Below, piece by piece: positions 13,639 through 40,353 of a DNA stretch of 64,000 nucleotides. The notes under the pieces were generated by a model. That model was not told where the DNA came from. It searched no databases and worked only from the letters and a program-made list of their open reading frames with translations. This DNA comes from Verrucomicrobiota bacterium (lineage in GTDB: Bacteria; Verrucomicrobiota; Verrucomicrobiia; Palsa-1439): contig PLZV01000057.1 in the NCBI GenBank assembly GCA_003152315.1, positions 1 through 64,000 on the forward strand. The letters run 5' to 3'. A program made the position numbers and the translations under genes. Every line of letters begins with the position of its first letter. Position 1 is the stretch's first letter.

Positions 13639-14451
13639 ATGAATCTGTTGTCGAAGTTCGCGCTTCTGTTCGGACGCAGGAAGTTCGAGGAATTTGCCCA
13701 GGCCAACCCCGCGCTCCCCGACGATGCGCTCGCCGTCGCCAACACGCTCGATACCTATCCCGTCCGCGGCGCGGTCGCGCTCGTCGCCGGGTCGCTCGCC
13801 CACGCGCTCGACAATCTCCTGCACGGCACGGAAACGATCGACGCCGCCGCGACGCACGCGCTCCTGATTCTCGCCGCCCTCTGCATCATCTGGGTCCGCC
13901 ACGCCATCAGCAAACACGATGTGCGCGTCAACGACGTCGTCCAAAAAACCCGCGATCTTTCCGGCATCGCCTCGAAAACATTGCTCATGATCGTTGCCTT
14001 CGGACTCGGCTTTGCACTTTTCGCGCTTTCGCCCGCCGCCTTCGCCCAGACGAATGCCGCCATCGACAACACTTTCTCTCAACTCGTCACCGACATCGGC
14101 AAGTCCACCAAGTTCAGCAGCGGCGTCGGCATCAATCTCCACGCAAAGGTCGCGCCGCTGCTCTCGCAGGAACTGCCGCTCTTCGGCCACTCAAACACGA
14201 ACTCGTCGTGGTCCACGGGCCCGTCGCACGCCACTTTCTTCCTCCGCGCCGAGAACGAGGAGCAACTGGGTTGGTCTTTGAGCGGGAGTTGGAAGTCGCC
14301 GCCGCGCCTCTTGAAGTTGGCACTGTTCAACGCCAGCGACATCGACTGGACCGTCAACTGGGGACTGCCCGTCGAGGATTACTACCAGCTCTTCCGTCAC
14401 GCCGACTGGAAGCAAAACCGCTTCGGCCTCTCGGTCACGCGGAAATTTTGA
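13639..14451 (+). CDS. phage-cluster membrane protein, function unknown
   Basis: From the ATG at 13639 (GAGGAG upstream, good spacing) the protein has 270 residues. Hydrophobic segments lie near 47-65, 75-95 and 115-137; the last ends in SPAAFAQT like a signal-cleavage site. A soluble C-terminal half (about 138-270) contains SSGVGINLHAKVAPLL. The open frame extends upstream to 13435, but that part has no start signal. It is the first gene of the plus-strand phage cluster, a position often taken by holin or lysis-accessory genes. No endolysin follows, so the role stays open. Confidence 0.65.
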   Translation: MNLLSKFALLFGRRKFEEFAQANPALPDDALAVANTLDTYPVRGAVALVAGSLAHALDNLLHGTETIDAAATHALLILAALCIIWVRHAISKHDVRVNDVVQKTRDLSGIASKTLLMIVAFGLGFALFALSPAAFAQTNAAIDNTFSQLVTDIGKSTKFSSGVGINLHAKVAPLLSQELPLFGHSNTNSSWSTGPSHATFFLRAENEEQLGWSLSGSWKSPPRLLKLALFNASDIDWTVNWGLPVEDYYQLFRHADWKQNRFGLSVTRKF

Positions 14452-14469
14452 ACCGGGGAGCCACCAGGA

Positions 14470-14835
14470 ATGAATGAACCACACGGCATCAATTGGGGCG
14501 CGGTCCTGGCCTTCGTCGCCATCCTCGAATTCATGCGCAGCGTCGTCATCTACATGTTCATCAGTCCGCTGCGCGGCGCGGGCAAGAAGATCGACCACCT
14601 CGAAAACCAGCTCAACGGCCTCAATTTCACCAACCTGCAAAAGAGCGTCGAGGACCACGAAAAACGGATGCGCACCCTCGAAAGCGACGCGATGCCCATC
14701 GACGATTTCCAGCGGTACGTGGACATCGCCGAGCGGGACCGCCGCCTGATGAACAAGAAACTCGACATCCTGTTACAACGCACTGCGCACCTCCGCAAAC
14801 CCGAAGATGAAAGGGAACTAGCCGATGAAACCTGA
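14470..14835 (+). CDS. membrane-anchored coiled-coil phage protein (Mu gp25-like position)
   Basis: A 121-residue protein: one N-terminal transmembrane helix (about 10-32), then a long charged coiled coil (DHLENQLNGLNF... to about 105). The shape and place, just before a small winged-helix protein and the terminase genes, match the DUF2730/gp25-type proteins of Mu-like phages, whose role is poorly known. A spanin-like role is an alternative. It overlaps the next gene by 11 bases, indicating translational coupling. Confidence 0.6.
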   Translation: MNEPHGINWGAVLAFVAILEFMRSVVIYMFISPLRGAGKKIDHLENQLNGLNFTNLQKSVEDHEKRMRTLESDAMPIDDFQRYVDIAERDRRLMNKKLDILLQRTAHLRKPEDERELADET

Positions 14836-15097
14836 AGAACTCCGCGACCTCCGCATCGCGCTCCTCCGCGAACTCTACCGCCTGAACCCGCTCGGCCGGC
14901 GCGCCGTCGTGCTCCACATGCTGGTCCAACCCGAAGTCGAGTGCAGCGTCGCCGAGGTCACCGCGCAGCTCGCGTTCCTGCGTGGCAAACATTTCCTCTG
15001 CGAGGTGAAGGCCGACGACATCTCCCCCGGCCTCGACCCGTTCTGGTTCATCACCACCGAAGGCATGGTCCACTGCGAGGCGAAGAGGCTGGTATGA
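14825..15097 (+). CDS. small winged-helix phage protein (Mu gp26-like)
   Basis: A 90-residue protein with a helix-turn-helix/winged-helix pattern: RIALLRELYRLNP (helix), CSVAEVTAQLAFLRGKHFL (recognition helix), then a beta wing (FWFITTEGMVHCEA). Mu-like phages carry such a protein directly upstream of the small terminase. It may bind packaging-site DNA or control late genes; neither is shown. Its stop overlaps the next start (ATGA at 15094). Confidence 0.6.
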   Translation: MKPEELRDLRIALLRELYRLNPLGRRAVVLHMLVQPEVECSVAEVTAQLAFLRGKHFLCEVKADDISPGLDPFWFITTEGMVHCEAKRLV

Positions 15098-15777
15098 AGA
15101 AACGTCCCAACCAGAGGGTCAGTCGTTGGCCGCTCCGGAAACGATTCAGCCGGATTGCGATGTTGCCCGAGGAGATGCGCCTCGAGATCAACCATAAGAT
15201 GAGCGAGGGCTGGCAAATCAAAATGATTGGTGAATGGTTGTTCGAGCAGCGGGCAGACCGAGACCTACCTCACCTGCATTTGAAAGCGGGCGATGCCTAT
15301 TCGTTGAGCTGGCTGCGCACCAGTCCGAAGGAAAAGAACGCGCGCCGGACCGTCGAAGCCGGATTGGCCCGCTGGTTCTACACTTCCTACCAGGAATGGC
15401 TGCGCCGTGAAGGGGAACGCGGGGAGAAGGTTCAACTGGTCGATGAATCGGAAAAGACCAACCGCGCGGCGGCGGAAAAGAGCCGACCCGATTCTGACGT
15501 GGGCGGCAATCTGATTATCCGCTCGATGCTTCTTGAGGCGATCAACCTGGTCCGCAAGGGGAGCAATGACCCGACGGAACTAGCGCAACTGGCGACTGCG
15601 TGGGCGCGCTTGAACCAGACAGCGATTGAACTGGAAAAGCTCCGGCTGCGCACGCAGGAGGCCGTGGACGCCGGCCTCAAGGCGCTGAAGTCCGAAATAA
15701 CGAAGGACCCCGAGGCTATTGAACTTTTCAAGAAGCTTCACGCCATCGTGAAACGATCCACGAAATCCGACGCATGA
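15094..15777 (+). CDS. phage terminase small subunit (DUF3486-like)
   Basis: A 227-residue protein. The N-terminal part (KRFSRIAMLPEEMRLEIN, then a helix-turn-helix segment around GWQIKMIGEWLFEQ) resembles the DNA-binding domain of Mu gp27-type small terminases (DUF3486). The C-terminal half is helical and charged, suited to oligomerisation and contact with the large subunit. It is placed directly before the large subunit with an ATGA overlap (15774-15777). Small terminases recognise phage DNA and load the packaging motor. The assignment rests on motif shape plus position. Confidence 0.75.
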   Translation: MKKRPNQRVSRWPLRKRFSRIAMLPEEMRLEINHKMSEGWQIKMIGEWLFEQRADRDLPHLHLKAGDAYSLSWLRTSPKEKNARRTVEAGLARWFYTSYQEWLRREGERGEKVQLVDESEKTNRAAAEKSRPDSDVGGNLIIRSMLLEAINLVRKGSNDPTELAQLATAWARLNQTAIELEKLRLRTQEAVDAGLKALKSEITKDPEAIELFKKLHAIVKRSTKSDA

Positions 15778-18056
15778 ACAAAGGCTTCGACATAGTCTTT
15801 GCCTCCATCGAACTCGAAAATGAGCCGAAGGTTGTCACCCCGTCCGTGAATTCCTTCCGCGAGTTCCTCGAAAAACGCGCGCGCGTTAAGACGCCCGACG
15901 GCACGTATCGCGCGTACACCTTTGATGGACGCGAGGCGTTGGAATTTGTGGTGGGGATCATTGATCGGGTGCTCGGCTCCGATTGTAGCCGCGCCGCTCT
16001 GTCGGCGCGTGACGGCGACCCCACGGCGACAGAGCGCCGTGGCTACAACTCAAAGACGTGCGGTCCCATCTCCGACGCCCGCCTCACCGCCACCGGTTCT
16101 GCGCAATGGGGGAAAACGATTCTGGAGTTGAATCTCCTCGCCTACGCCGCCGGCATTCAGTTCCGCTCCGTCGGCCTCTTCCTGCCGGATGAAGACCTGG
16201 TCGAGGGCATCGTGGACAGCAAGCTTCGCCCCGACGTCCTCGACCAGCAGCCGTGGCTCAATTCCCTAATCACGCTCGGCAAAGCGGAAAACGCCTCGGG
16301 CAAAACCGTCAATCGCAAAGGCCTCTTCACCTGTACTGACGGCCATCGCAAATCGCACGGGATGATCCACGGCATGCAGAAGATCCCCACGACGTTCAGT
16401 TTCGACATCGTGATCGAGGACGAGAAGGACGACATCCCGCCAACCATGTCGCGCTACCTCACCGCCCGCATGACCGCCAGCGATCTGCGATTCCGCCTGA
16501 GTATCGGCACCCAGCGTTACGCCGGCGCGGGACAGAACAAAGAGTTTGAAGACGGCACGATGCACATCGGCCACTTCACCTGCGCCGTGTGCGGTCACAA
16601 GCAAAACCCCGAAGAAAACTGGCCGCAAATCTGTCGGCTGGTGGTGGGTGATGCGCCGCGCGTTGATGACCCGCAACTGACGTTGGAAGGGAATTTCCGA
16701 AGGCCTGTCACCCTGAGTCCCGTCATGCGACGGGATCCCGCAGGATTGCGGGACTTGTCGAAGGGTCTCAGTCGTACCGGTCAAACGACAGAGATTCTTC
16801 GCTGCGCTCAGAATGACAACCAAGAGGGAACGGTTCGCTCACCACGCATTCCGTCTCCTCTCCCCTTGGGGGAGAGGATGGGTGAGGGGAACCTCTTCGA
16901 TTTCCTCCCTGATTCCCACTTCTACCTCGCCTGCGTTCATTGCGGCACACCGCTCGACCGCCACGCCCCCGAATTTATCCCACTCCACCCGGAGCGGGAG
17001 AAGTTGCAGCACTGGTCCGTCCGCATTTCGCAACTACTCGTCGCGGCCATCGCGTTGAAGCAAATCGTGGCCGATTGGTGCCACAACGCCGTGCAAGACC
17101 CGGACGCGATGAAGACGTTCTACGTCGATCGTCTCGGCCTGCCGCGTTCCAGCAGCCAGCAACTCGACCAGAAGATCCTCGACCGCGCCGGCAGTCTGGA
17201 ACACTTCGACCTCTCACTGTCGCCGCGTCCCAACACCACACGTTTTGCCGGTCTCGACACGGGAGATCGTTGCTGGCTGACCGTCCGCGAAATCGAATCA
17301 CCAACCATAAAGCGCATCACCTGGCTGGAGCAACTCAGCGCCGAACGCGTTCGCGCCCGCGTGCCGCAGGTGTTCGAGTTGTTGGGAGTCAGCGCGCTCT
17401 TCGTCGATGCCGGTCCTTTGCGCGACCTCGCGCGCGATCTCTGTTTTCTGTTGAATGGTCTCACCAGCTTTCATCCCTCGCCGCTTCCCGATCCCGAGCG
17501 CGCGGTCATCCATTTTCCCGGCGGCCTCACCTGGGACGGCGCGAACCAGCGCTGGCGGGGGCTGCGTTGCGCCGCCGTCGAGTTCACGCTCAAGGAAGGG
17601 AAGGGGATCATCCACAAACTCGGCATCACGCAGGACGGCCTCTTTTATCCCGTCATCGCCTGCAATCGTGACGAGACCATCGAGCGCGTCGTCAATGAAT
17701 TGCTCACCGCCGCCGAGAACGTCATTGAGGTCATCGACGGCAAACTGCGCACCACGCCGTCGATTCGCCTCCCGCAACGGGGAGTCGCCACGCCGAAGAT
17801 CATCGACACGTTCGACGCCCACATCGTTTCCGGCAGCCGCCGCGAACGCGACGAACGCGGCCACGCCGAGCATTTCGTCGACGGTTGCGAAAATCATCTG
17901 CTGCTCAGCGACGCCTACAGCGCGCTCGCGGAATCCGTGTGTGTCCACCCCATCGCGCCCCCTCCCACCAGCGCGATGAATCCCACCACCTCCCGCACAC
18001 TCGGAAACCGCGGCCGCTGGGGCGCGCCGATTTTTGCTCGGAGGATATGGTCATGA
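15774..18056 (+). CDS. phage terminase large subunit (GpA-like) with in-frame palindromic inserts
   Basis: A 760-residue packaging ATPase-nuclease. Walker A is GSAQWGKT at 108-115; a Walker B-like segment IVIEDEKDD lies near 212-220. Two CxxC knuckles (FTCAVC near 268 and LACVHC near 386) form the zinc ribbon typical of GpA-type terminases. A nuclease domain is expected in the C-terminal half. Two blocks are foreign: 15983-16048 (22 codons just before Walker A) and about 16704-16893 (about 63 codons between the two zinc knuckles). Both are palindromic repeats read through in frame, which explains the length above a normal 600-650 residues. The enzyme should translocate DNA into proheads; whether it tolerates the inserts is unknown. 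Confidence 0.88.
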   Translation: MNKGFDIVFASIELENEPKVVTPSVNSFREFLEKRARVKTPDGTYRAYTFDGREALEFVVGIIDRVLGSDCSRAALSARDGDPTATERRGYNSKTCGPISDARLTATGSAQWGKTILELNLLAYAAGIQFRSVGLFLPDEDLVEGIVDSKLRPDVLDQQPWLNSLITLGKAENASGKTVNRKGLFTCTDGHRKSHGMIHGMQKIPTTFSFDIVIEDEKDDIPPTMSRYLTARMTASDLRFRLSIGTQRYAGAGQNKEFEDGTMHIGHFTCAVCGHKQNPEENWPQICRLVVGDAPRVDDPQLTLEGNFRRPVTLSPVMRRDPAGLRDLSKGLSRTGQTTEILRCAQNDNQEGTVRSPRIPSPLPLGERMGEGNLFDFLPDSHFYLACVHCGTPLDRHAPEFIPLHPEREKLQHWSVRISQLLVAAIALKQIVADWCHNAVQDPDAMKTFYVDRLGLPRSSSQQLDQKILDRAGSLEHFDLSLSPRPNTTRFAGLDTGDRCWLTVREIESPTIKRITWLEQLSAERVRARVPQVFELLGVSALFVDAGPLRDLARDLCFLLNGLTSFHPSPLPDPERAVIHFPGGLTWDGANQRWRGLRCAAVEFTLKEGKGIIHKLGITQDGLFYPVIACNRDETIERVVNELLTAAENVIEVIDGKLRTTPSIRLPQRGVATPKIIDTFDAHIVSGSRRERDERGHAEHFVDGCENHLLLSDAYSALAESVCVHPIAPPPTSAMNPTTSRTLGNRGRWGAPIFARRIWS
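15983..16048. repeat. palindromic element inside the terminase gene
   Basis: 66 bp with arms TTGTAGCCGCGCCGCTCTGT and ACAGAGCGCCGTGGCTACAA, which are nearly perfect inverted repeats. The length is exactly 22 codons, so the reading frame is kept. Confidence 0.9.
16704..16893. repeat. composite of palindromic elements inside the terminase gene
   Basis: Three repeats lie in a row: TGTCACCCTGAG...CTCAGAATGACA (about 16707-16818), with ATCCCGCAGGATTGCGGGAC nested in it (about 16734-16753, as in the SRAP pseudogenes), then CTCTCCCCTTGGGGGAGAG with its tail (16855-16893). All are translated without a stop. Confidence 0.9.
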
Positions 18057-18064
18057 ACGTCGTT

Positions 18065-18128
18065 GGAGGGACACGCTCCGTCGTGTCCGAAATAAAACAG
18101 AAGCGGTCGCGACGGAGCGCGACCCTCC
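18065..18128. repeat. palindromic element PE1 between terminase and the next gene
   Basis: Left arm GGAGGGACACGCTCCGTCG, right arm GCGACGGAGCGCGACCCTCC. It starts nine bases after the terminase stop, and the next gene's AAGGAG lies directly behind it. Confidence 0.9.
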
Positions 18129-18145
18129 AAAAGGAGAAATCCAAA

Positions 18146-18541: not shown

Positions 18542-18567
18542 CCATCGCGTTGCTCACGAGAAATCCC

Positions 18568-20103
18568 ATGGCCAATCGCCTCAGAAAAACATGGCAGACG
18601 CTGAAAGGTTTTGGCACGGAAATATTCCGCGCTGACAGCGCCGGCCTCTTCCAATTCGGTGAGAGCAATCTCGTCGACACACCTCGGAAAACGGGCGGGA
18701 CGCCCGTTCTACCCCAGCCCGGCACCATCGTCAAAGCGCAGGTAGCAGAGCGCTGGATGAACCAGGTCACGCGCGGCCTCACGCCCGAGGCCGTCGATGA
18801 TTATCTCACCACAGCGATCAGCGGCGACACGCTGAACCAGTTCGCGCTCTTCGAGGAGATGGAAGAGAAATGGCCCGAACTGCGTCTTGCGCTCTACAAA
18901 CACAAGTTGAAAGCCGGCCGCCGCAACCCGCGCATCGTTCCGCCTGATCATCCGCAAAATCCCGCGCTTGCCAAAGAGAAGGCCGACTTCGCGAACTACG
19001 TCTTCGCCGCGATGCGCAACTGGCATCGCACCGCCTTCAATCTTCTCGACGCGGTCGGCAAAGGCATCAGCGGCGCGGAGATCGATTGGCAACCAAGGGA
19101 GGTGGTCGGGCCCGGCCGTTCCGGGCATCGCGCCGCCGTGGTCATCGCGGAAATGCCGTGGGTGAATTACCGCCACTGGAGTTGGTGGTGGGACAAGCCC
19201 GAGTTGCAGTTGTTCCCCGACCTGCGCAACCGCGGCCTGCACATCGACGTGCCCGACCGCAAGTTCGTCATCTTCCATCACCTCTCGAAGAGCGGCCATC
19301 CCGCTCGCGCCGCGATGCTGCGCCCGCTCGCCTGGTACTTCCTCATCTACCTCTACACGATGAAGGACTGGAGCACGCTCGCGGAAACTTTCGGTGTCGA
19401 TATCGCCCACGCGTTTTGCAACAAGGACGCGACGCAGGAGCAGCGCAATGCGATCCTCCTGCATCTTTCCCGGCTTGCCGCGCGCGCCGGGGTGTTCGAC
19501 GAAGGGACGGTCGTCAATCTCCAGCGCGCCGCCAGCGGCAGCTCGTTCCCGCAGGAAGCGCTGGTGAAATATTGCTCCGAGAAAGCGCTCGAATGTCTCC
19601 TTGGCGCAACGCTCGGCACGCAAGCCGGCATCCGCGGCGCGCGTTCCCTCGGATTGGTGCAGCAAGATGAGACGGAAGAGTTGGTGGATTGGACAGCGCT
19701 CCTTTTCGCCGGAACCATGACCGCCACCGCGTTGCGTTGGTTGATGGACTTCAACTTCGCCGACCCGACCGACAATCCCGTCATGGAATTGCCCGGTGCC
19801 AGCCGGCGCGACATCGCCGCCTTAGCCAACGTCGTCAACACGTTGGTCAATCTCGGCCTGCGCGTCCCCGAATCCTGGGCCCACGCCCAGTTCGACATCC
19901 CGCAATCCGGCGAAACCACCGAGCGCCTGCTAACCCCGAGTCAAAATAGCAGTCCGGATGCGCCCGGTAATCCGCTCAATGGTTCTGCCCACCGCGAGGA
20001 ACTCATCCTTGCCGACTTGGTTACGCGCCTTGGGCCGCCAAAGGAGGCGAATCCAGCGGCGAGAGTCGGCACAATCCACGAACCCTCAGAAGCTGCCAAA
20101 TGA
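18568..20103 (+). CDS. phage portal protein (DUF935, Mu gp29-like)
   Basis: From the ATG at 18568 the protein has 511 residues. LRPLAWYFLIYLYTMKDWST followed by a FGV segment is the signature seen in DUF935 portals of Mu/B3-type phages. ADFANYVFAAMRNWHR and the helical C-terminal half also fit. Portals form the dodecameric DNA channel at the head vertex. Residues near 40-49 (RKTGGTPVLP) come from a palindromic repeat (18685-18712) embedded in the gene. It follows the terminase, as expected, but with the small exported gene between them. Confidence 0.85.
   Translation: MANRLRKTWQTLKGFGTEIFRADSAGLFQFGESNLVDTPRKTGGTPVLPQPGTIVKAQVAERWMNQVTRGLTPEAVDDYLTTAISGDTLNQFALFEEMEEKWPELRLALYKHKLKAGRRNPRIVPPDHPQNPALAKEKADFANYVFAAMRNWHRTAFNLLDAVGKGISGAEIDWQPREVVGPGRSGHRAAVVIAEMPWVNYRHWSWWWDKPELQLFPDLRNRGLHIDVPDRKFVIFHHLSKSGHPARAAMLRPLAWYFLIYLYTMKDWSTLAETFGVDIAHAFCNKDATQEQRNAILLHLSRLAARAGVFDEGTVVNLQRAASGSSFPQEALVKYCSEKALECLLGATLGTQAGIRGARSLGLVQQDETEELVDWTALLFAGTMTATALRWLMDFNFADPTDNPVMELPGASRRDIAALANVVNTLVNLGLRVPESWAHAQFDIPQSGETTERLLTPSQNSSPDAPGNPLNGSAHREELILADLVTRLGPPKEANPAARVGTIHEPSEAAK
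18685..18712. repeat. palindromic element inside the portal gene
   Basis: GAAAACGGGCGGGACGCCCGTTC is an inverted repeat of the same family as 10714-10740. It is translated in frame as the RKTGGTPVLP peptide. Confidence 0.85.
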
Positions 20104-20518
20104 GAATCATCTGTGGAACGGACATGCACGCAACCAAAAACATAAGTGAGGAATCCAGATGGGACAGCGAGCCCGATTTTGGCAGCAGACTCACCATCCG
20201 GGCATCTAGAAGGAAAGTACCTGTGACAATGATTGTACTCACGTTCGTACGCAGACGAATGGAGGTCTTCAGGGGGGTCATCACCTCATCATACTTGGGA
20301 GCAGGAGTGCCGAGTGCTGCAGCCAGGATCGAGTCGCGTCTCACTCCCGACTCTGTTCGCTGCAAGTTGTATGACCAAATCTTGGTCAGAATTATCATCC
20401 ACGCTGTGGTTACGAATGCGTTCAACAATGCTATCGCCACCATCATCTCTGGTTTCACAATACCGAACCTTACCTCCCTTATTTGTCCCGCACAAGCTGT
20501 TTGCTCCCAATTCGTCAC
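20021..20518 (-). CDS. possible antisense membrane protein in the phage cluster
   Basis: The 456-base gap between portal and protease has no good plus-strand gene, but the minus strand holds 165 codons. A second start, MMVAIALLNAFVTTAWMIIL, would begin at about 20446. Three hydrophobic segments are visible (about 25-45, 95-112 and 127-145), separated by basic loops, a believable small membrane protein. It ends inside the portal gene, and the composition here is more AT-rich than its neighbours. It could be a separately transcribed cargo gene. No family was recognised and no strong ribosome-binding site is seen. Confidence 0.4.
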   Translation of the reverse strand: MTNWEQTACAGQIREVRFGIVKPEMMVAIALLNAFVTTAWMIILTKIWSYNLQRTESGVRRDSILAAALGTPAPKYDEVMTPLKTSIRLRTNVSTIIVTGTFLLDARMVSLLPKSGSLSHLDSSLMFLVACMSVPQMILIWQLLRVRGLCRLSPLDSPPLAAQGA

Positions 20519-20559
20519 TCACAGCACAACGAGCTCAACCACGTTCTCAGGAGACCACC

Positions 20560-21657: not shown

Positions 21658-21661
21658 AAAT

Positions 21662-21726
21662 GGAGGGCCACGCTCCGTCGTGGCCGCCATAAAAACGGAA
21701 ACGGTCGCGACAGAGCGCGACCCTCC
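21662..21726. repeat. palindromic element PE1 downstream of the protease gene
   Basis: Arms GGAGGGCCACGCTCCGTCG and GCGACAGAGCGCGACCCTCC. It begins four bases after the protease stop, so it sits between cotranscribed genes and could form an RNA hairpin there. Confidence 0.9.
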
Positions 21727-21758
21727 AAGAACAACCAAAAAAAAGAGAAGACAAACAA

Positions 21759-22124
21759 ATGTGGAGCAGAACCGTTGAGACCGCCGTGAAGCTTGGCTTC
21801 GCGGTAAACCGAGGTAGCGCGGACGGCAAAGTCGTTCCCGCCGCCGATGGCACGAAACCGACGTTCCCTGTTTTCAGTGAGCGCCCCGACGTTGGCACGA
21901 TCATCGCCGCGGGCAGCACGGTCGCCATTGTCACCGACGACGGCGACCGCGAAATCTACGTGATCCTGGGCAACACCGTCACCGAATTCCAGTTCGGTAT
22001 GTCGGATTCAAATGGCGCGTGGATTCCCGCGACCACCGGCAATTACACCGGCGTGCAATTCCTCCAAAGCGGCGTTGCCGGCGACGTCGTGAAAGCCCGC
22101 GCCGCGCAATTCAAACTCCCGTAA
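21759..22124 (+). CDS. phage head decoration-like protein
   Basis: A 121-residue, beta-rich protein (GTIIAAGSTVAIVTDDGDRE, NYTGVQFLQSGVAGD) between the protease and the major capsid gene, the usual site of capsid-decorating or stabilising proteins. No family was recognised with certainty. AGAGAAG lies about nine bases upstream of the ATG. Confidence 0.6.
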   Translation: MWSRTVETAVKLGFAVNRGSADGKVVPAADGTKPTFPVFSERPDVGTIIAAGSTVAIVTDDGDREIYVILGNTVTEFQFGMSDSNGAWIPATTGNYTGVQFLQSGVAGDVVKARAAQFKLP

Positions 22125-22148
22125 CGCAACCAGCAAAGGAAAACGCAT

Positions 22149-23168: not shown

Positions 23169-23181
23169 ATCCAAATCCGAT

Positions 23182-23214: not shown

Positions 23215-23223
23215 TGTAAAAAC

Positions 23224-27355: not shown

Positions 27356-27401
27356 AATTGTCTTTCGGATTTCTGAATTCGGATTTTTCGGGAGAGCCTC
27401 T

Positions 27402-30736: not shown

Positions 30737-33655
30737 ATGAGTTTTCTCGGCGGTGCGTCCACATCCACCAATGCGAACCGGCGCGCGGTCGCGCAGTCTC
30801 CCGTCGCTTCCAATATTCTCGGCACACCGTGGCCGACGCTATGGGGCACGCGCGACTTGAACGGAACCGTGATCGCATGGACGAATCACCGCTTCAGCAA
30901 CGCCGGTGCGACGGGGAAGGGCGGTGGGCAGGTTTCATCGGGTGAGAAGGATTACCGGACGTTCGCTCTCGGCCTGTGCATCGGGCCGGTGGATCGCATC
31001 ACGGAAATCTGGTACGACAACGCGCTGATCTGGCAGGGCAACGTGAGCGTCGCCTCGGCAGCGACCGCCGTGACGGCCACGGTCGGCATGGGTGGCGTAG
31101 TGCTGACCGATAGCGCCAGCCGCGGCACGATCACGTTCTACTTCGGACTCTCGACACAAACGCAGGATCCAATCCTGGCGCAATTCATTCCCGATGCGCC
31201 GTTCTATCGCGGGATGTGCTACGCGGTATTCCACGGTAACCGCACCGGCACGCGCGGCTTTCGTATCGGCAACGCCGACACGCTCGCCCAGGTTGCGTTG
31301 CGCGTGACCCGCATCCCGGCTTCGCCACCGGGCGCCGCCTTCAATGTGCAGACACAGGCAAGCGCACAGAACGCGCAGATTGTGAGCGGCAATCCCATGC
31401 TGACAGCCGATGCATCCGCATTCACCGGCCCAGCCAGCATCATCTACCAACTTGTCGTGCAACATGGCCCGGGCGGTTCGCAGGCGTCGGTCACAGTCAG
31501 CGTTCTCGATGGGTCGGATTCGGGCAGCGAACCGTTCACAATCACCAGCGGCACGCCATTCGCCATGGGCAGTTTCGGCTTGATGGCCACGCTCACGTGG
31601 ACCGGCACGCTTATCAATGCGCCGAACACCGCGCAGTGGCTGATCCTGCTGACAAGCAACATGGTCGCGCTCGGTGGCGCGAATGTTGCCGGCATGATCT
31701 ACGAGCTTTTGACGAGCAGCGTCCACGGCATCGCGCTCGATCTGGCCGTGATCAACAACGCGACGTTCAACAGCGCGGCGCTCTCCCTGCTGAACATGGG
31801 GCTTTCCTGGGCGGTCAGGGACAAGGGCGATGCGCGCACACTCATCGAGGACATCCTCAAAAATGTCCAGGGCGCACTGGTCATCAGCAATGGCGAGGTC
31901 GGACTGCGACTACTCACCGGCGGCAACTCATCGCTGACGCTGGAGGCCGACGATGTGGTCGGTCTAAAGCAGCGGCCCGGTTCCTGGTACGAGGTTCCGC
32001 AACACACGACCGTCAAGTACAGCGACACCACCCGCAAGTTCCACGACACGATCCTCTCACTGCCGGGCGCAGGCGATTTCGGCAACGATGAAAAGAACAT
32101 CGAGATCACCTTGCCGATGGTGACCGACGCCCGCGTGGCGCGGCTGATTGGCTCGCGCTTGCGCACGTTGGAGACGCTGCCGAAGAACCCCGACACGATC
32201 ACCTGCGGACGCGGCGCGTTTCAATTGCAGTTTGGCGACGTGTTCGTGATCAATGATCCGCCGCGCGGCTACGATTCGACCACTCCCGTGATCGTCGTCG
32301 CGATCCGCGAGCATGGCATGGGCGACGAGACGATTGAGGTCGATGTCGTACCGGAAGTCTTCGGCTACCTACCGGCGCTGGTGGCCGCGGTCGGCGGCGG
32401 AGGTGGTGGCGGTGGCGGAGGTACAACACCGATCAATCCGATCCAGTTACAGGATGCCGTCGAATTGCCGTGGGACTTTGCCCAGGACAGCTCCAAACGG
32501 TTCACGGTGTTCGCCGCGCGTCCGGATCCAGATGTGGAGGGACTCGCGCTCTACACATCCATCGAGCAACCCGCCGTCGATTACGATGTGGTCGATTCCG
32601 ACGCGCTGTTCCACGCCGGCGGGAAGGTGATTAGCGTGAACTTCTCGGGGTTCACAATGGACCGCGAAGCGTCCATCGACTTCAACCAGGGCAGCGACGA
32701 CATCGACGGCTTCTCCTCGCTCTCAGACTCGGATTGGTTCGCCTACAAAATGCTCGTGCTGGTCGGTGGCGGAATTGGGGCCGGGCTTTACGCGGTGCGC
32801 GAGCTGGTCTTTCTCGGCGGATCTAGCTGGCGGCTGCGGGGCATCTTCGGGCCGCTCTCGGATACGCCCGTCCCGGCCCCGTCCGCTGGCAGTCCTATTT
32901 GGGTTTTTCGCATCCTGCCGCTTTACAATGTACTCGCGGAACCAGCCTGGGTGCTCAATTCCGTCCTCACGTTCAAGGGCATTCCGTTCGGCAGCCGATT
33001 GTCACCCACACTGGCCGATGCCCTTGCCGCGCAACTCACGGTCGTTTCGCGCGCAGCCCGACCGTTCCCGGCCGATAACCTGATCGCCAATGGTCGCGGC
33101 GCATTGATGACGCCGTTGTACAGCAGCGACATCGCGCTCGCGTGGGTGCTGCGCGACCGCGGTTTCGGCTTCGGTTACGAAACGAACCCAAGCGAGTTCG
33201 ACCCAACAGTGCCCAGCGAGATCAATACGTGCGACGTGGAACTTTGGGTCGGCGGCGTCTTAAAGCGCACGACGACGGTCAATGTGCGCCACGACGCCAT
33301 CCAAACGTCCACGCTCTCTGTGGCCAGCGCGCAGCAGTTCGACGTTGGCAGCGTGGCCGGTCTGCAGCCCGGCGACTTGATCAGCGTCGCAGTCTTCGGT
33401 AACACCGGCCAAATCTTCGGGCGCATCCAATCGATCAGCGGCCTGACGATCACGCTGTTCTCGCCGCTGCCAGTCCTGCCCGTGGCCGACGAGTTGGTGA
33501 CCCGCTACGAATCAGTCGGCTACATCTACGATGCCGCGACAAATGAATCCGACAATGGCGGCAGCCTGGCCGCTGCGGTGGACGTGAAAGTGTACCCCAA
33601 TCTCAACGGCCTGCGCGCCCTGCGCCCGGCAGAACTCACGGTGATAAAACAATGA
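30737..33655 (+). CDS. phage tail tip / host-specificity protein (lambda J-like)
   Basis: A 972-residue protein, the largest of the tail-tip cluster. It starts MSFLGGASTSTNANRRAVAQ and contains WGTRDLNGTVIAWTN and YRTFALGLCIGPVDRITEIW at about 30-90, typical of the N-terminal hub of J-like and GTA 'megatron' proteins. A glycine-rich hinge (nine Gly in a row at 32396-32421) follows at about residue 555. Fibronectin-like beta domains make up the rest. This protein contacts the receptor and directs host binding. It overlaps the next gene (ATGA at 33652). Confidence 0.8.
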   Translation: MSFLGGASTSTNANRRAVAQSPVASNILGTPWPTLWGTRDLNGTVIAWTNHRFSNAGATGKGGGQVSSGEKDYRTFALGLCIGPVDRITEIWYDNALIWQGNVSVASAATAVTATVGMGGVVLTDSASRGTITFYFGLSTQTQDPILAQFIPDAPFYRGMCYAVFHGNRTGTRGFRIGNADTLAQVALRVTRIPASPPGAAFNVQTQASAQNAQIVSGNPMLTADASAFTGPASIIYQLVVQHGPGGSQASVTVSVLDGSDSGSEPFTITSGTPFAMGSFGLMATLTWTGTLINAPNTAQWLILLTSNMVALGGANVAGMIYELLTSSVHGIALDLAVINNATFNSAALSLLNMGLSWAVRDKGDARTLIEDILKNVQGALVISNGEVGLRLLTGGNSSLTLEADDVVGLKQRPGSWYEVPQHTTVKYSDTTRKFHDTILSLPGAGDFGNDEKNIEITLPMVTDARVARLIGSRLRTLETLPKNPDTITCGRGAFQLQFGDVFVINDPPRGYDSTTPVIVVAIREHGMGDETIEVDVVPEVFGYLPALVAAVGGGGGGGGGGTTPINPIQLQDAVELPWDFAQDSSKRFTVFAARPDPDVEGLALYTSIEQPAVDYDVVDSDALFHAGGKVISVNFSGFTMDREASIDFNQGSDDIDGFSSLSDSDWFAYKMLVLVGGGIGAGLYAVRELVFLGGSSWRLRGIFGPLSDTPVPAPSAGSPIWVFRILPLYNVLAEPAWVLNSVLTFKGIPFGSRLSPTLADALAAQLTVVSRAARPFPADNLIANGRGALMTPLYSSDIALAWVLRDRGFGFGYETNPSEFDPTVPSEINTCDVELWVGGVLKRTTTVNVRHDAIQTSTLSVASAQQFDVGSVAGLQPGDLISVAVFGNTGQIFGRIQSISGLTITLFSPLPVLPVADELVTRYESVGYIYDAATNESDNGGSLAAAVDVKVYPNLNGLRALRPAELTVIKQ

Positions 33656-34113
33656 GCGTTCTATCTAACGGCACCGAAGATTTACCAACGGGCCTTACGC
33701 CGGCAGCGGCATATGCCCTCGTCAACACCGCGATCCAGAAGATCGCGCAAATGAACCTGCTCGACAAGGACGTGCCGTTCTTTGGGCTGATCCGTGACGG
33801 TCAGGTCCGCGGCACTTCACAGATCGCCATCGAACGGCTGATCACCGCCGTCGAAATCCGCGCCGAAAGCGCGCTCCCGATTGGATCGGGGCTGGTGGTC
33901 CAGCTAGTCGTCAACGGCAACCTGCAATCGCAACAATACACGCTCAACGCCGGAAGCTCCTACGCTCTCACGGGCGTAACTGGCGACGGCAACGGTGTCG
34001 CGGGTTCCGGCTTGGTCGTCCCCGCCAACCAGACGCTCGCCGTGAGGATGATCAGCGGCAATCAGGCCGCCGACGTCGTGGTCACTCTCAAATGTCAACT
34101 GAGGATTCTATGA
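33652..34113 (+). CDS. tail-tip-associated protein, function unknown
   Basis: A 153-residue, beta-rich protein with an N-terminal helix (TPAAAYALVNTAIQKIAQM) and pairs such as QLVVNGNLQSQQYTL. It is coupled to the J-like gene upstream and to the fibre gene downstream by overlapping starts and stops, so it is most likely a minor tail or fibre-attachment protein. No family was recognised. Confidence 0.6.
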   Translation: MSVLSNGTEDLPTGLTPAAAYALVNTAIQKIAQMNLLDKDVPFFGLIRDGQVRGTSQIAIERLITAVEIRAESALPIGSGLVVQLVVNGNLQSQQYTLNAGSSYALTGVTGDGNGVAGSGLVVPANQTLAVRMISGNQAADVVVTLKCQLRIL

Positions 34114-36647
34114 ACCCGAATAAAGCAACCAAGCAATCGAGTAACCGAGTAGCCAGGGGACGAATTTTCCGATCCGGCCGAATTCTTCCCTTGATTGCTT
34201 GGCTACTGTGCTACTGGGCTACTTCTTCCCACGCCGGCTACGTCTACCCCTTCCGCATCATCAGCGGCAACACCACGGGCGAAGTGGACGAGACGCAATT
34301 TAGCGTCAGCGACATCACGCTCTCGATCACAAACCTGCCGGGTGGTGGACGGCGCGCGCTCATCGGCATCATCGGCGGCGGTGGCATTGGCGGATCGAAC
34401 AACACGATCCTCGTTGCCGGCAATGGCCTGGAGTTCACCGACGAGGGCGGAGGGACAAATTTACTGGCCATCGATCCGTCGATAGTGGCAACAAATCCGG
34501 TCGCCGGCACCGGCGGTGGCATCACCAACGTGCTCGACACCGCCGGCGGCCCTTACGATCTCGTCGGCCACACCAACCAGCCGACGCTGCTGATCAAGGG
34601 CTTGACCAACGAAAGCCCAGCGGTGCTGACGATTACGGATCGCGGCACGATGCTCGGTTTCCTGGTCGCCACGCAAGGCGGCTTCGGCTCCACAAACGCC
34701 TGGACAACCAACGGCCTGCCGTGGACCGTGTCTGACACATTCGGTTTCTCCAATGCCTCGTCGGTCGTGGGCCTGCTATTCACCAACCTCGGCGGCGTTC
34801 CGACGATTTACTTGGTGCCCGATAGCACTATCGCCCGCACCGGGCAATCGCAGACGTGGAGCGCGCCGCAAACGTTCAATAATAGCGCGACCCTCACGCT
34901 CGGCGCGCCGACGTGGTTCAAGAGCAGTATTATCGTCAGCGACAACGTCACCGTCGTTAGCAACGAGACTGTCGGTGGCAGCCTGACGGTTGGCGCCAAC
35001 GCGACGATCACCGGCAACATGAATGCCGGCAGTTTCACGGGTTCCATGAACGGCGCGAACATCACCGGGAATCAGAGCGTCGGGACAAACACACTCGCCG
35101 CCTTCGGCAGCAACACCGGCACCATCGGCAGCGCCGGTCAGTTCCTCGTCGTGCACCTGAATTCGGCCGGCATCCCCGACGGTTGGAGCACCGTCACCGG
35201 CAACAGCTTGGCCACGTCCACCAACTCCATCAGCGCCGTGCAACTCGCCGGTGCCTGGAACAACGGCGTGGTTGGTTGGATTGCCACGAACTTCAGCGTG
35301 GCCACGATCAACGGGACGACAGTCACCGTTGGTTTCGCTTCGTCACCCTTCGAGAATATCACCATCCTCAACGGCACAACCAACTTCACTCTTCACGGCT
35401 CCAGCCTGACAATTTCAAACCTGTTGTCTGCCTACGGAGTCACCCTGACCAATCGCGGCAGCGGCCAGATCGATCTCGGCGGTACCATGACCATGCTCTC
35501 CAACAGCGCCGGCGCGTTCAATCAAATAACGGGAAGCTCTGCGAATTCAACGCAAAACTGGAGCGGAACATCCAGAACGGTTGTTACTATTCCCAATAAT
35601 GGCCAAGCGCTCAAGTTCATACCGAATGGCTCTGAGAACGGAATCAATTCTGAAATGGATGTAGTGCCACAAGATGGCTCTAACGCCGCCTATCTAGAGT
35701 TTACACGCGATGGCCCAAAAGCAGGAGCAATGTTCATAACCTTCGTTGACAGCATTTCCGGCAGTGTGCAATTCGGACACGAACCATCGGGCAATGCCAA
35801 TGGCGACAAGCGATGTGCGTTTATCTCTACCTCATCAGCCGTTGGCGGATTAATAGTGGCTAGCCAGGATAACAACTCCACAGGGCTTGGCGGCTATCAA
35901 TTTTACGAAAACGATCCACGCTTCCCGCGCATTCTCTTCACCAATGGTAAGCAAACCACCGACACGAACACGACGGCGGCGCATGAGACCTACGCCAGCT
36001 ATGGCAACTGGACGAACTCGGGCGGCAGCGCCACGCTGAATGGCGGCGGGCTGATCGTCATCGGCTCGAATGAGTATTGGCTGGCCATTGGACGGGCGGT
36101 CGGCTCAGTGACCGGCACCAAGGATAAAGAGTATCCGACAAATCGATTCTCCGGGTTCTTCTTCCCGCCGATTACCTCAGCGCAAAGTAACAAAACTTAT
36201 CTTGCCGTGCGCGACGCCTCCAACGGATTGTGGCTGATAGGCGTCGGCTCCAACGGTGCTCATGCCCTCTTCCAGACGAACGATCTCTCGACGCCGGTGG
36301 CATTGCAGTTTGTCACCAACCTTCTAACGGTGGTCACTGACACTTACACCAATTCAGGGCGCGGCGAGGTTTCCGTCATGGTGAACCTGACATCCGTGTC
36401 TGGAAATCCCGCTGTCGGCTGGATGTTTGAATTCTCGACCAATTCAACCGGCACCATAGTAACCAACACGATGGACTACGTTTCGGAGCCGGCGATTGCC
36501 TTGACGGAATCCAAGGTGATGCGGGGCGTGATGGACGCAGGCTACGCTCTGTGCATCTCCAACCTGTCATCCGGCGGAGCCACGCTTACGATCAATACCG
36601 AATCCGGCGCGCCCGCCAATGCCCCGAATCGCATCACGTTCTATTGA
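34110..36647 (+). CDS. phage tail fibre-like protein
   Basis: An 845-residue protein with low-complexity repetitive beta structure: GGGRRALIGIIGGGGIGGSN, then repeated 'sgNvtvvsnetvgGsltvganatitGn' turns at about 270-330 that look like a trimeric fibre or beta-helix shaft, and a globular end. The first 40 residues include a hydrophobic stretch (ILPLIAWLLCYWATSSHA) that resembles a signal peptide. That stretch is encoded by an inverted repeat (34125-34222), so it is probably an inserted element and not a true export signal. It probably binds the host surface. Confidence 0.65.
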   Translation: MNPNKATKQSSNRVARGRIFRSGRILPLIAWLLCYWATSSHAGYVYPFRIISGNTTGEVDETQFSVSDITLSITNLPGGGRRALIGIIGGGGIGGSNNTILVAGNGLEFTDEGGGTNLLAIDPSIVATNPVAGTGGGITNVLDTAGGPYDLVGHTNQPTLLIKGLTNESPAVLTITDRGTMLGFLVATQGGFGSTNAWTTNGLPWTVSDTFGFSNASSVVGLLFTNLGGVPTIYLVPDSTIARTGQSQTWSAPQTFNNSATLTLGAPTWFKSSIIVSDNVTVVSNETVGGSLTVGANATITGNMNAGSFTGSMNGANITGNQSVGTNTLAAFGSNTGTIGSAGQFLVVHLNSAGIPDGWSTVTGNSLATSTNSISAVQLAGAWNNGVVGWIATNFSVATINGTTVTVGFASSPFENITILNGTTNFTLHGSSLTISNLLSAYGVTLTNRGSGQIDLGGTMTMLSNSAGAFNQITGSSANSTQNWSGTSRTVVTIPNNGQALKFIPNGSENGINSEMDVVPQDGSNAAYLEFTRDGPKAGAMFITFVDSISGSVQFGHEPSGNANGDKRCAFISTSSAVGGLIVASQDNNSTGLGGYQFYENDPRFPRILFTNGKQTTDTNTTAAHETYASYGNWTNSGGSATLNGGGLIVIGSNEYWLAIGRAVGSVTGTKDKEYPTNRFSGFFFPPITSAQSNKTYLAVRDASNGLWLIGVGSNGAHALFQTNDLSTPVALQFVTNLLTVVTDTYTNSGRGEVSVMVNLTSVSGNPAVGWMFEFSTNSTGTIVTNTMDYVSEPAIALTESKVMRGVMDAGYALCISNLSSGGATLTINTESGAPANAPNRITFY
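34125..34222. repeat. inverted repeat inside the 5' end of the fibre gene
   Basis: Left arm ACCAAGCAATCGAGTAACCG and continuing to about 34154; right arm TTGATTGCTTGGCTACTGTG (34191-34222). The two are related by reverse complement. The element is read in frame. Confidence 0.65.
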
Positions 36648-36685
36648 TAAAACACCCAAACAAAGCCATGAAAGGAACAACTAAG

Positions 36686-36922
36686 ATGCACGCATTCATC
36701 CTCGCCCTGATCCTCAACGGCTGTGTAAGCTGCCCACCGAATGGGACGGTAGTCACGAACACGATCACGCAAACCATCGGCACCAACGTGCTTGCCAGCG
36801 CCACGATGTCCAACGGTACACTTGTCGTCACCGCCACCATCCCGAGCAACCAGGTTAATGCCGTCGGCACGGCCATCGGCACGAACTCCACGCCGAGCCA
36901 ACTAATCATCAACGGACAATGA
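36686..36922 (+). CDS. small secreted or lipoprotein-like protein
   Basis: A 78-residue protein from the ATG at 36686 (AAAGGA nine bases upstream). It has a short hydrophobic start MHAFILALILNGCVSCPP, where LNGC could serve as a lipobox, and a Thr/Asn/Val-rich remainder resembling fibre-type beta repeats. It lies between the fibre and the tailspike genes. No function is recognised. Confidence 0.5.
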   Translation: MHAFILALILNGCVSCPPNGTVVTNTITQTIGTNVLASATMSNGTLVVTATIPSNQVNAVGTAIGTNSTPSQLIINGQ

Positions 36923-36987
36923 GCCGAGTGGCGCACTAGCGACACGAGACGCCGCGGTGTCGTTGCCGCGGCAACCGCAATCAAATT

Positions 36988-39900
36988 ATGAAAAAGCTCC
37001 TTCACACTCTTGCCCTTCTTTTGGTGGCCGCATTTCTCTCGCCGCTCGCGCCGGCGGCGATGGCCACGGGCACGAACGTCACAGCGATCCGCCTGCAGGG
37101 TTGGCTGCTGCCGTTCAGTCAGGTTCCCTCCAGCGGTTGGCTGATGCTCGGGACCGACCCGGCGAGCGGTACCGACAGCTCGGAGCTGCACCGCATCTAC
37201 GGCCAGATTCTCGTGAACCAGACCAATACTTGGTTGCGGGCACAATTCGTAAACTGGAAGGACATCGAGCTGTCGCCGGGCGTTTACAGTTTCACCAATA
37301 ATATCATTGGCGGGGTCACCAACCACAGCTTTGACGCCTGGTTGGCCGCGAACACGGTGACGAATTTTGACGCCACGATCACGCCGCTGCCGATCAACCA
37401 ACCAAAGATCATGTTCAATATTTGCGGTGCGCCGCCGTGGATCGTTTACACGAACAGCACGCAGGCCCAGTACATCGCGGCGGAGACGAACCTGGTCAAG
37501 GCGATCCTCCGCCATGTGCCCGGTCGGATCTGGGCGCTGGAGTTCACCAACGAACCATTCACGAACATTTATCCCGGCTGTGTTACCTTCACCGATACGG
37601 CGACTTTCGTCGCCAACCTGGCGGCGGCAGTTCGTAAAGCGGTGCACGACGTGGATCCAATGGTGCTGATCGTTGGGCCATCGCTGAGTAGTCCCTACGA
37701 CAACAACTTTATGACGGCCTTTAGCGCGGCAGGCGGATTCACGAATCTCGACGCGGTTTCATTTCACGATTATCGGATGACGGGTACCACCTCCAACGCT
37801 CCCACGTACACACCGACGCAAAACAGCGACTCTCCTTTTGTGACCAATCTTGCCGCGTGCGTCTCGAATCTGAATGGATGGTCTGGGCGCAAACCGATCT
37901 TCGTCACCGAACTTGGTCTGGGAATTGTCAGCAACGTGATCGCCTACGTCACGATTGCTGATCAGGTCGGCGTTGCCGGTTTGGCACCGACATATTTCTT
38001 GGGCCCGCAGACTCCCGGACAACTGTATCTAACAGGTTACTGGAATTATACGGCTGACGCGCCCGCGTCCAATGGAGCGGCATACATCTCCACGATGCTG
38101 GCCGTCAACCCGCCAGTCGCGGCAGTGACGCACCCAACAGCCCTGGCTTACAATGAATGGTACGGGCCGTTCTCGTCGTGGACGAATGTGATGGCTTTCG
38201 GGGCGGCATGCGATGGGACGACGGATGACAGCACCGCCGTCTCCAACGCGCTGTCGGCTATTGGTAACGGCAACTGCTCGCCGGTGCTGCTGATCCCCGG
38301 CATGTGCCGGGTCACGAAAAAGCCCTGGCTCAATCAGCGCAAGAATGTCGCGGTGGTGGGCTGGAACCAAAACACCTGCGGCTTTCTCTACGACGGGCCG
38401 ACTGTGCCCGCGAACAACACCAACAACTCCGGCGCGGCCACCTGCTTCCACGTGGACGGGGTGGCAAACAGCTGCTTCGCGCGGCTGAAGTTCGACGGCA
38501 ACTTCAAGGCGCGGACTGTCCTCGCGTCCAGCCAGCAGTCATCGGTCATCTTCGACAACAACAATCTCTACGAAGATTGCATTATCAAGAACTCCGCGCC
38601 CGGCGGTATCGGCGTGGATGGCGGACACTTTGAACCGTGGGAAGGCTTCTCGAACGAGGATTTCGTCCGGTGCCTGATCCAGACCAACTCCATCGGCGTG
38701 GAACTGGAGAACTTCAACGCGCTGGACATCTGGTTCACCGATTGTCTGATCGAGAGCAACACGACGTATGGGATTTACGTCAGCAAGGGCGACTCCCATG
38801 CCTACCACTCATTCTTCCAGCACAACGGCATCGACTTCTACCACAACCCCGGCGCACCGTTCTCCTCGATGGTCAGCAACACGAGCTATCAGTCTGGCGC
38901 TTTCTTTGTGACCGTCAACCAGGGAGCCAACACCACGCCGCTCTTGTTCAAGTGCAATACGGTGATCGACCCAGCGGGCATTCCCTACCAGATGAATCAG
39001 TTCGGGCCGGTCATCATGCTGGACAATTCCACGCTGACGACCAACGCGACGATTTCTTTCACCAGCGGCTCGCTGGCAGACCTGCTCGCGGTCGGCAACA
39101 CGAACGGCGTCTCGAACTGGGCAACATTCTCTGGCGGGATCTCCGTGCGCAGCAACCTCGTGGACAACTTTGTCGTCAACCGCGCGTCCTTGTCCTTCAC
39201 GTTGCCAGGCCAGCCAATCCCCGCGACCAACTTGAACCGCACCGTCTTTGAAATGACGACGAACATGACTTCCGCGTCGCTGCAGGGCAGCATCAACAGC
39301 GCGGGCGACGGCTGTGTATTCCACATCCCTTCGCCGGTGCTGGAATCGAACCATCAAATCTACCCGAACGGCACGGTCACGATCCCGACCAACAAGGACG
39401 TGCGGATCGTCGGCGACGGGGCGGACACGATTCTGTTCTGGAACGGGTCCAGCGGCGGCACGCTCTTTTCCTGTCCCCACCCGTCGCACGTCACCTTTTC
39501 GCATATCGCTTTGGTGGGCAATTACGGCGGCGCGGCCAGGCTCATCGACGTGTCGGGTGTCGGCAGCACCCCGGCGCGTGTTTACCTGCGGGACTCCAGC
39601 GCGACGCAGCCGGTGGGTGCAAACGTGTTCCTCGGTAATTGCTCGAATACAGTGATCGACATCGCCGGGCTGAGTTACGGCGGGGGAAACTTCGGTGCGC
39701 CGCCCGCCACCAACGGCAACAACGTCGTTCTCAGCGGTGCGGGAAAGGTGCGCTACATCAACACCGATGGTGGCGGCAACGCCATCAGTTTTGTCAGTAC
39801 CAATGGCGGCCAGCTTTACGTGGAAAACTCCTATAACGAGGCCAGCAACACTTTCTCGAACAGGCTCCTGCGCCTATCAGGTGGCGGCACGGTTACCTTT

Positions 39901-40353
39901 CTCGGCTCGAAGATGGTCGAGAACATCGGCAGCGCGGAGGATTTCAGCCGCGCCACGTCCAATGGCTTCGCCCTCGTGAATTTTACGGGGCAACTGTCGT
40001 TCCTCGGTGTTCAGGTTATTGACTGGTTCAATCTCAGCGGCGCGACGACGGGCCTCGTTTGGATCGAGGGCGCGAACACCTTCCGGAATCCCGTCAGCCC
40101 CTGGCCGATCATCAACTCGACGAACGATACGCCGGTCCAGACCATGAACTACAACTTCACCGATGCCAGCGGCAGCACGAGGATCCCTGACATCGGCACA
40201 GCCTCAGCCGCGTTCACACGACAAATGCTCAGCCAGGCGCGCGCCGAATACATTGACCGCGCACCCATGATGCGGCGAACCAATCAAACCGACGTTCTCC
40301 TAGAGCAGGTCTTCTTCCAATTGGGAGCCGAAAACCTCGGCGTGACGCCTTGA
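36988..40353 (+). CDS. tailspike-like glycosidase with GH-A-type barrel and beta-helix
   Basis: A 1121-residue protein. Residues 1-26 form a Sec-like signal (MKKLLHTLALLLVAAFLSPL...). About 30-360 resemble a clan GH-A TIM barrel: the acid/base is probably Glu in ALEFTNEPF and the nucleophile Glu in IFVTELGLG. At about 405 a pectate-lyase-type right-handed beta-helix starts (FGAACDGTTDDSTAVSNAL) and runs for several hundred residues. Two-module polysaccharide-degrading proteins at the end of a tail cluster are usually depolymerase spikes. The signal peptide is not expected for a virion protein, so a secreted cellular enzyme at the cluster edge is the alternative. Confidence 0.6.
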   Translation: MKKLLHTLALLLVAAFLSPLAPAAMATGTNVTAIRLQGWLLPFSQVPSSGWLMLGTDPASGTDSSELHRIYGQILVNQTNTWLRAQFVNWKDIELSPGVYSFTNNIIGGVTNHSFDAWLAANTVTNFDATITPLPINQPKIMFNICGAPPWIVYTNSTQAQYIAAETNLVKAILRHVPGRIWALEFTNEPFTNIYPGCVTFTDTATFVANLAAAVRKAVHDVDPMVLIVGPSLSSPYDNNFMTAFSAAGGFTNLDAVSFHDYRMTGTTSNAPTYTPTQNSDSPFVTNLAACVSNLNGWSGRKPIFVTELGLGIVSNVIAYVTIADQVGVAGLAPTYFLGPQTPGQLYLTGYWNYTADAPASNGAAYISTMLAVNPPVAAVTHPTALAYNEWYGPFSSWTNVMAFGAACDGTTDDSTAVSNALSAIGNGNCSPVLLIPGMCRVTKKPWLNQRKNVAVVGWNQNTCGFLYDGPTVPANNTNNSGAATCFHVDGVANSCFARLKFDGNFKARTVLASSQQSSVIFDNNNLYEDCIIKNSAPGGIGVDGGHFEPWEGFSNEDFVRCLIQTNSIGVELENFNALDIWFTDCLIESNTTYGIYVSKGDSHAYHSFFQHNGIDFYHNPGAPFSSMVSNTSYQSGAFFVTVNQGANTTPLLFKCNTVIDPAGIPYQMNQFGPVIMLDNSTLTTNATISFTSGSLADLLAVGNTNGVSNWATFSGGISVRSNLVDNFVVNRASLSFTLPGQPIPATNLNRTVFEMTTNMTSASLQGSINSAGDGCVFHIPSPVLESNHQIYPNGTVTIPTNKDVRIVGDGADTILFWNGSSGGTLFSCPHPSHVTFSHIALVGNYGGAARLIDVSGVGSTPARVYLRDSSATQPVGANVFLGNCSNTVIDIAGLSYGGGNFGAPPATNGNNVVLSGAGKVRYINTDGGGNAISFVSTNGGQLYVENSYNEASNTFSNRLLRLSGGGTVTFLGSKMVENIGSAEDFSRATSNGFALVNFTGQLSFLGVQVIDWFNLSGATTGLVWIEGANTFRNPVSPWPIINSTNDTPVQTMNYNFTDASGSTRIPDIGTASAAFTRQMLSQARAEYIDRAPMMRRTNQTDVLLEQVFFQLGAENLGVTP

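Follow-up and report, generated by a model that had tools for sequence, protein, structure and literature searches.

A Mu/B3-like phage head-and-tail cluster held at one chromosomal place in Verrucomicrobiota, a candidate gene-transfer-agent-like operon

We examined a window of 64,000 nucleotides of DNA from a Verrucomicrobiota bacterium (contig PLZV01000057.1), in which a cluster of phage head and tail genes at 13639-40353 reads as the late half of a Mu/B3-like siphophage. Judged by its gene content and its state in relatives, this is a domesticated structural cluster and not a decaying or recent prophage, and the comparisons below strongly support the view that it is kept by selection. We favor, with moderate confidence, the explanation that the cluster is a vertically inherited, selected, host-owned particle operon that acts like a gene transfer agent (GTA). 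A GTA function is likely by these comparisons, and a GTA-like particle that packages host DNA is the best mechanism we can infer.

Profile searches identify 13639-40353 as an intact late region of Mu/B3-like siphophage type with terminase, portal, protease, capsid, tail, and fiber genes, and they bear out the original prediction of a phage head-and-tail module from the large terminase TerL to the J-like tail tip protein. The packaging, head, and tail set is nearly complete and has the terminase motifs, and MuF is missing. All frames of the module are open, as had been claimed for its structural genes, and the start at 13639 is correct. The Mu/B3-like head order proposed earlier also holds, as the late genes are a Mu-type set in the order found in phage JBD25.

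The same locus is found in sister lineages. We compared the window's genome (G000) with two congeners (G001 and G002) and with IMG/VR contig 3300037199_000247 (22.5 kb; here G057). In G002 the module is collinear over 13440-36142 (73-92% nucleotide identity); as in the window, FHA and MORN genes lie to its left, and a homolog of the 40395 gene and ribonucleotide reductase (RNR) lie to its right. The G057 contig runs from TerL through a homolog of the 36988 gene and then into the same right-flank gene as the window. A vertically inherited chromosomal place is thus seen in G000, G002 and, on the right side only, G057; the window begins at a contig end, so only 13.6 kb of the left side of G000 is visible. 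The gene der lies directly upstream of RNR in G001, G003, G007, and G009, and 38.8 kb lie between the two in G002; RNR is 94% identical to that of the window in G002 and 87% in G001. In relatives outside the clade der and RNR are still neighbors, so a single entry of the module followed by vertical inheritance is most likely; the simplest history places that insertion after the divergence of the G001 lineage.

Ratios of nonsynonymous to synonymous substitution (dN/dS) for the three pairs range from 0.00 to 0.37 and are mostly near 0.1 (mostly 0.02-0.2). They are 0.02-0.05 for the major capsid protein (MCP), 0.08-0.09 for the portal, 0.07-0.12 for TerL, 0.04-0.05 for the major tail protein, and 0.11-0.19 for J, so that capsid, portal, and terminase, for which this comparison had been suggested, are all low (0.02-0.12) and under purifying selection. 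The head genes have dS of 0.2-0.8, similar to that of RNR (0.42) and of the 40395 gene (0.53-0.86). There are no stops in the aligned coding stretches of G000, G002, or G057, whereas a neutral simulation (20% of sites substituted, 19 kb of coding DNA, 200 runs) gave a mean of 99 stops and a minimum of 65. The original prediction had offered a decayed Mu-like prophage or a selected cluster, with a recently deleted prophage as a further possibility. The Mu/B3-like ancestor stands, and the shared locus in three lineages, the low dN/dS, and the lack of stops strongly favor selection over decay. A recent deletion is disfavored because G002, at dS ~0.4, lacks this half too, which makes the loss an old one. 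Absence from all sister genomes with dN/dS near 1, named in advance as evidence against a kept cluster, is not what we see, as the cluster is present in G002 with dN/dS mostly 0.02-0.2.

Host repeats within the module point the same way. One palindromic repeat is present in 46 exact copies genome-wide (control 0), and three of these copies fall in two of the module's gaps; four of the six counted repeats lie in the noncoding 4% of the module (P = 5e-5 under random placement). Two repeats in TerL are in frame, and the TerLs of contigs L017 and L018 and of genome G020 bear other repeats at similar spots. Since the repeat content differs between G000 and G002, several insertions postdate their split and the DNA has long been resident as chromosome. 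The old chromosomal-type repeats noted earlier are therefore real, as palindromic repeats in gaps and dispersed repeats in frame in TerL.

We then consider the genes that are missing. PHROGs and Pfam scans covered 76 open reading frames (ORFs) from both window flanks, the next 40 kb to the right, and the left flank of G002, with the top 25 families listed. No integrase, transposase, replication gene, or endolysin is among these 25 families, and the scans returned chromosomal families and a few regulators; they agree with the earlier claim that linked mobility, replication, and lysis genes are absent, now for 40 kb further on the right and, via G002, on the left. A MuA-type transposase, a repressor, and transposon ends were not found in the flanks. 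No tRNA gene marks an attachment site, and flanking att repeats or target duplications, which had been named as evidence against the prediction, gave only chance-size matches. In G020 and on contig L017 the neighbors of the module are likewise ordinary chromosomal genes, and the side that can be seen has no mobility gene.

We propose that the late half of a B3/JBD25-like transposable siphophage entered between der and RNR in the common ancestor of the organisms of G000, G002, and G057, its transposition, control, replication, and lysis half being lost or never brought. Comparison of the three shows that the module has since passed down by vertical descent and that selection has retained it, as an operon for making particles that belongs to the host. 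The conserved leader before the first gene would drive the making of short-tailed, DNA-filled particles, TerL and the small terminase TerS would fill the heads with host chromosomal DNA by headful filling, the tail and fibers would deliver this DNA to related cells as a GTA does, and lysis and regulation would be supplied from elsewhere in the genome. The missing mobility, replication, and lysis genes, the short tape measure, and the placement of repeats mostly in gaps all argue for such a GTA-like operon. It is also favored by the conservation of the TerL catalytic residues: Walker A, Walker B, and the nuclease Asp are invariant over five relatives, which indicates that DNA packaging itself is under constraint. 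The more specific proposal, to which we give slightly less than an even chance, is a Verrucomicrobiota GTA of independent origin: a B3/JBD30-like transposable siphophage would have shed its whole transposition half and MuF and had its tail shortened, its operon would include exported fibers and a lipoprotein, and the family's other module loci would have been gutted or kept separately.

Several points weigh against a GTA-like operon. Particles, expression, and transfer are predictions from sequence, and no lysis gene was found in a scan that covered the flanks. The profile match of TerS is confined to the C-terminal half, which would agree with the lack of a DNA-binding domain in TerS proteins of known GTAs, but an N-terminal segment aligns with JBD25 TerS, which suggests that a diverged N-terminal segment remains; TerS may keep a DNA-binding segment there, unlike known GTA TerS. 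TerL tolerates repeat insertions. The distribution is narrow, with clear MCP relatives in 4 of 384 genomes of the class and no wide conservation through the host clade; a wider sample of the phylum added nothing close, and a search based on J added G001 and elsewhere found distant phage tails only. G001 keeps only two gutted remnants, on contigs C80 and C119, elsewhere in its genome, both preceded by the leader array, which means that not every lineage needs the cluster. On C80 (L095 1379-4906) the first gene is fused in frame to J by deletion of everything between, giving an open ORF of 1175 residues that is followed by 33652 and a 34092-like gene, and C119 holds a TerS fragment. We had at first scored G001 as lacking the module, and the leader search that uncovered these remnants corrected this. 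Finally, dS is higher in the tail genes, and in the tape measure G002 and G057 group together against the window, so some recombination or horizontal exchange has happened.

Other explanations share part of this evidence. Vertical inheritance and selection also fit a domesticated defective prophage of the PBSX kind, whose particles are kept for killing competitors or for another use and whose DNA is not usefully delivered. The fast-changing fiber end and the exported proteins in the operon would suit a weapon; pure killing, however, needs no terminase, yet the constraint on TerS and TerL equals that on the tail genes, and the tail is not contractile by gene content. We give this explanation a small but real chance. 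It is somewhat less probable that related phages or islands inserted independently at one hot spot, as the higher tail dS, the discordant tape measure, and the further module loci in G001, G009, and G020 might suggest. Ratios like these might also arise by purifying selection in free phages, against which the shared chromosomal boundaries speak here. The right-boundary gene is identical in three lineages and the FHA and MORN genes on the left are shared, the head dS is like that of the flanking genes, all copies lack mobility genes, and the lineage-specific host repeats show long residence.

A functionless remnant that is decaying, or that has lately lost its left half, would account for the missing early half, MuF, and gpG, for the loss of the last gene in G002, and for the gutted remnants in G001. 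The age of the loss, which G002 shares at dS ~0.4, speaks against this, and dN/dS near 0.1 with zero stops excludes neutral drift over that time, so that we strongly disfavor it and regard it as improbable. At least as improbable is that the module supplies capsids and tails to another mobile element (a satellite) in the genome, for which it is kept or by which it is exploited. A structural set without replication genes would suit a helper, but no satellite was seen, though no satellite search was made, and a host benefit would still be needed to keep the module in place.

Features of the module and of its right flank (window coordinates)
Feature	Coordinates	Strand	Evidence or remark
Conserved leader, triple CTTCCAAA array; candidate promoter/operator	13500-13638	+	Conserved in G002 and L017
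Membrane protein, first gene, 270 residues	13639-14451	+	Open in G002, dN/dS 0.16; no family match
Transmembrane and coiled-coil protein at Mu gp25/DUF2730 place	14470-14835	+	Position as in JBD25; no Pfam match of its own; dN/dS 0.12
TerS, Mu Gp27-like	15094-15777	+	phrog_426; weak PF11985 match, C-terminal half only
TerL, 760 residues, in-frame host repeats	15774-18056	+	phrog_675 4.7e-29, weak GpA_ATPase
In-frame TerL insertion built of dispersed host repeats	16690-16925	+	42 other matching places in genome; mostly lacking in G002
Gap with palindromic host repeat	18057-18145		46 exact copies genome-wide
Small exported protein, 131 residues	18146-18541	+	Signal peptide by eye; dN/dS 0.11-0.17; other frame than portal
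Portal, Mu type, 508 residues in G002	18568-20103	+	Portal_Mu 2.7e-55; solved Mu-like portal 8rka 1.3e-38
Variable slot where JBD25 and G009 have MuF	20104-20559		Content differs in every lineage
Head maturation protease	20560-21657	+	phrog_3894 weak; position; dN/dS 0.11-0.15; start ~20560
Gap with palindromic host repeat	21658-21758		Repeat search of genome
Small head protein, decoration or scaffold	21759-22124	+	phrog_673; 100% amino acid identity to G002 at dS 0.32
MCP	22149-23168	+	phrog_1005 7e-43; dN/dS 0.02-0.05
Head-tail connector, Mu gp36-like	23224-23700	+	PF07030 8e-13
Probable connector/tail completion protein, by position	23704-24246	+	dN/dS 0.09-0.14
Probable tail terminator-like protein, by position	24237-24776	+	dN/dS 0.07-0.09
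Major tail protein	24817-25602	+	phrog_807 1e-13; dN/dS 0.04-0.05
Two overlapping tail-assembly-type ORFs	25659-26257 (25659-26033, 25973-26257)	+	Both open in G002 and G057
Short tape measure, 359 residues	26276-27355	+	phrog_3547 and others
Tail hub/assembly protein	27312-28661	+	phrog_1082 3e-51; solved virion protein 8rk3 1.5e-13; dN/dS 0.14
BR0599-type tail hub protein	28658-30145	+	phrog_778; solved baseplate hub 8vjh_D 2.7e-6
NlpC/P60-like tail peptidase	30142-30642	+	Weak PF00877; Spr 2k1g 0.003
J-like tail tip protein	30737-33655	+	phrog_1101 1e-56; 8vjh_A minor tail protein 1.8e-11
Tail-end protein, 153 residues	33652-34113	+	dN/dS 0.11-0.21
Fiber-like protein, Sec signal peptide by eye	34092-36647	+	Signal sequence kept in G002 and G057
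Small lipoprotein, lipobox LNGC by eye	36683-36922	+	Kept in G057
Exported protein, 1121 residues	36988-40353	+	G057 homolog, dN/dS 0.14; absent from G002; no family match
Exported chromosomal-type gene, right-flank boundary marker	40395-41402	-	Common to all three copies (G000, G002, G057)
RNR, right chromosomal flank	41915-44965	+	phrog_84 1e-110; neighbor also in G002

Some gene extents in the table differ from those first given. The portal was correctly named, but its start is 18568 and not 18034, with the separate exported gene in front of it; a portal that appeared broken in G002 was rejected as a finding, because its stops came from the wrong start and the true portal there is open. Even the nearest portals from cultured sources reach no more than 26-29% identity. 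The BR0599-type and NlpC/P60 identities were upheld, the latter on a weak match, with corrected extents. For TerS the start shown is the most likely one, and an ORF on L025 taken as TerL was rejected as a transporter-like chromosomal ORF. The TerLs of the window, L017, L018, and L019 have host repeats, palindromic or dispersed, inserted in frame at shared permissive positions, and those of L017 and L018 have a duplicated stretch immediately before the Walker A motif. At the portal-protease slot, where tblastn did not find MuF, each lineage has short unrelated content (also at L021:12635-13093 and L018:6789-8390), as in a variable cargo slot. In G009, a histidinol dehydrogenase-like gene on a 6-kb contig (C193, L068) has a weak portal-like ORF (24% identity) nearby.

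In the tail region, the overlap of the two tail-assembly-type ORFs resembles that of tail chaperone pairs, which may be their role. By eye, Sec or lipoprotein signals are present in four genes of the virion operon (18146, 34092, 36683, and 36988) and are kept in relatives; phage fibers are normally cytoplasmic, so exported fiber-like proteins are odd. The 36988 product is possibly a surface-glycan enzyme or a spike. Residues ~44-370 form an extra N-terminal part of ~330 residues, glycoside-hydrolase-like by eye, that the G057 homolog lacks, and at the place of this gene G002 has a minus-strand methyltransferase ORF instead. Sequence searches of the 36988 and 34092 products and TerL against solved structures gave no match, and AlphaFold models of TerL and the 36988 product had mean predicted local distance difference test scores of 30 and 32, too low for use.

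About 140 bp 5′ of the 13639 gene are conserved in G002 and L017. The triple CTTCCAAA array within them occurs 2 times in G000, 6 in G002, and 2 in G001 (reversed control 0). It may be a promoter or operator, or a piece of a dispersed element. Elsewhere in these genomes it precedes unrelated ORFs at a few places, possibly as a regulon or a dispersed promoter element.

GTAs with a known genetic basis are only a handful, and the open-access literature that we searched holds none in Verrucomicrobiota, a phylum in which gene exchange is poorly understood. If our explanation is true, GTAs would have arisen independently once more, here as a selected, vertically inherited particle operon derived from a transposable phage. 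Some IMG/VR "viruses" are chromosome pieces with such clusters. Of the IMG/VR contigs L016, L059, L017, L018, and L019, at least one (3300037199_000247) is a piece of chromosome, and the sequence of L019 matches a stretch of G020 exactly.

Among known systems, defective prophages of the PBSX type resemble the cluster in their intact head and tail genes, in DNA packaging, which is predicted for the cluster, and in the lack of propagation. PBSX keeps linked regulation and lysis genes, and none were recognized at the 13639-40353 locus. The B3/JBD25/JBD30-like transposable siphophages of Pseudomonas share the late order from the gene after the endolysin to J, as well as the Mu-type portal, TerS, gp36, and hub. 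They differ in that the cluster lacks the transposase half, endolysin, MuF, and gpG (virion-morphogenesis) genes, has a portal only ~26% identical, has a tape measure of 359 residues compared with 1209 in JBD25 (and 999 in the G009 relative), and is fixed in the chromosome. The RcGTA-like tail order seen earlier is real but not diagnostic, since JBD25 shares it, and we rejected kinship on that ground; searches of all solved chains returned Mu-like portals and no RcGTA chain, and the head profiles are Mu-like. What the cluster shares with RcGTA and other GTAs (PMC9662315, PMC11841831) is a chromosomal head-tail cluster with vertical inheritance, purifying selection, a similar tail order, and no replication or integration genes. 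Known GTAs fit this layout, and their genes for lysis and regulation are scattered through the genome (PMC11841831, PMC9662315). It differs from them in its unrelated, Mu-like head lineage, its narrow distribution, its exported fibers within the operon, a transfer function that is a prediction here, and perhaps in a TerS with an N-terminal segment, where known GTA TerS has no DNA-binding domain. The cluster is no homolog of RcGTA and would be an independent, transposable-phage-derived case.

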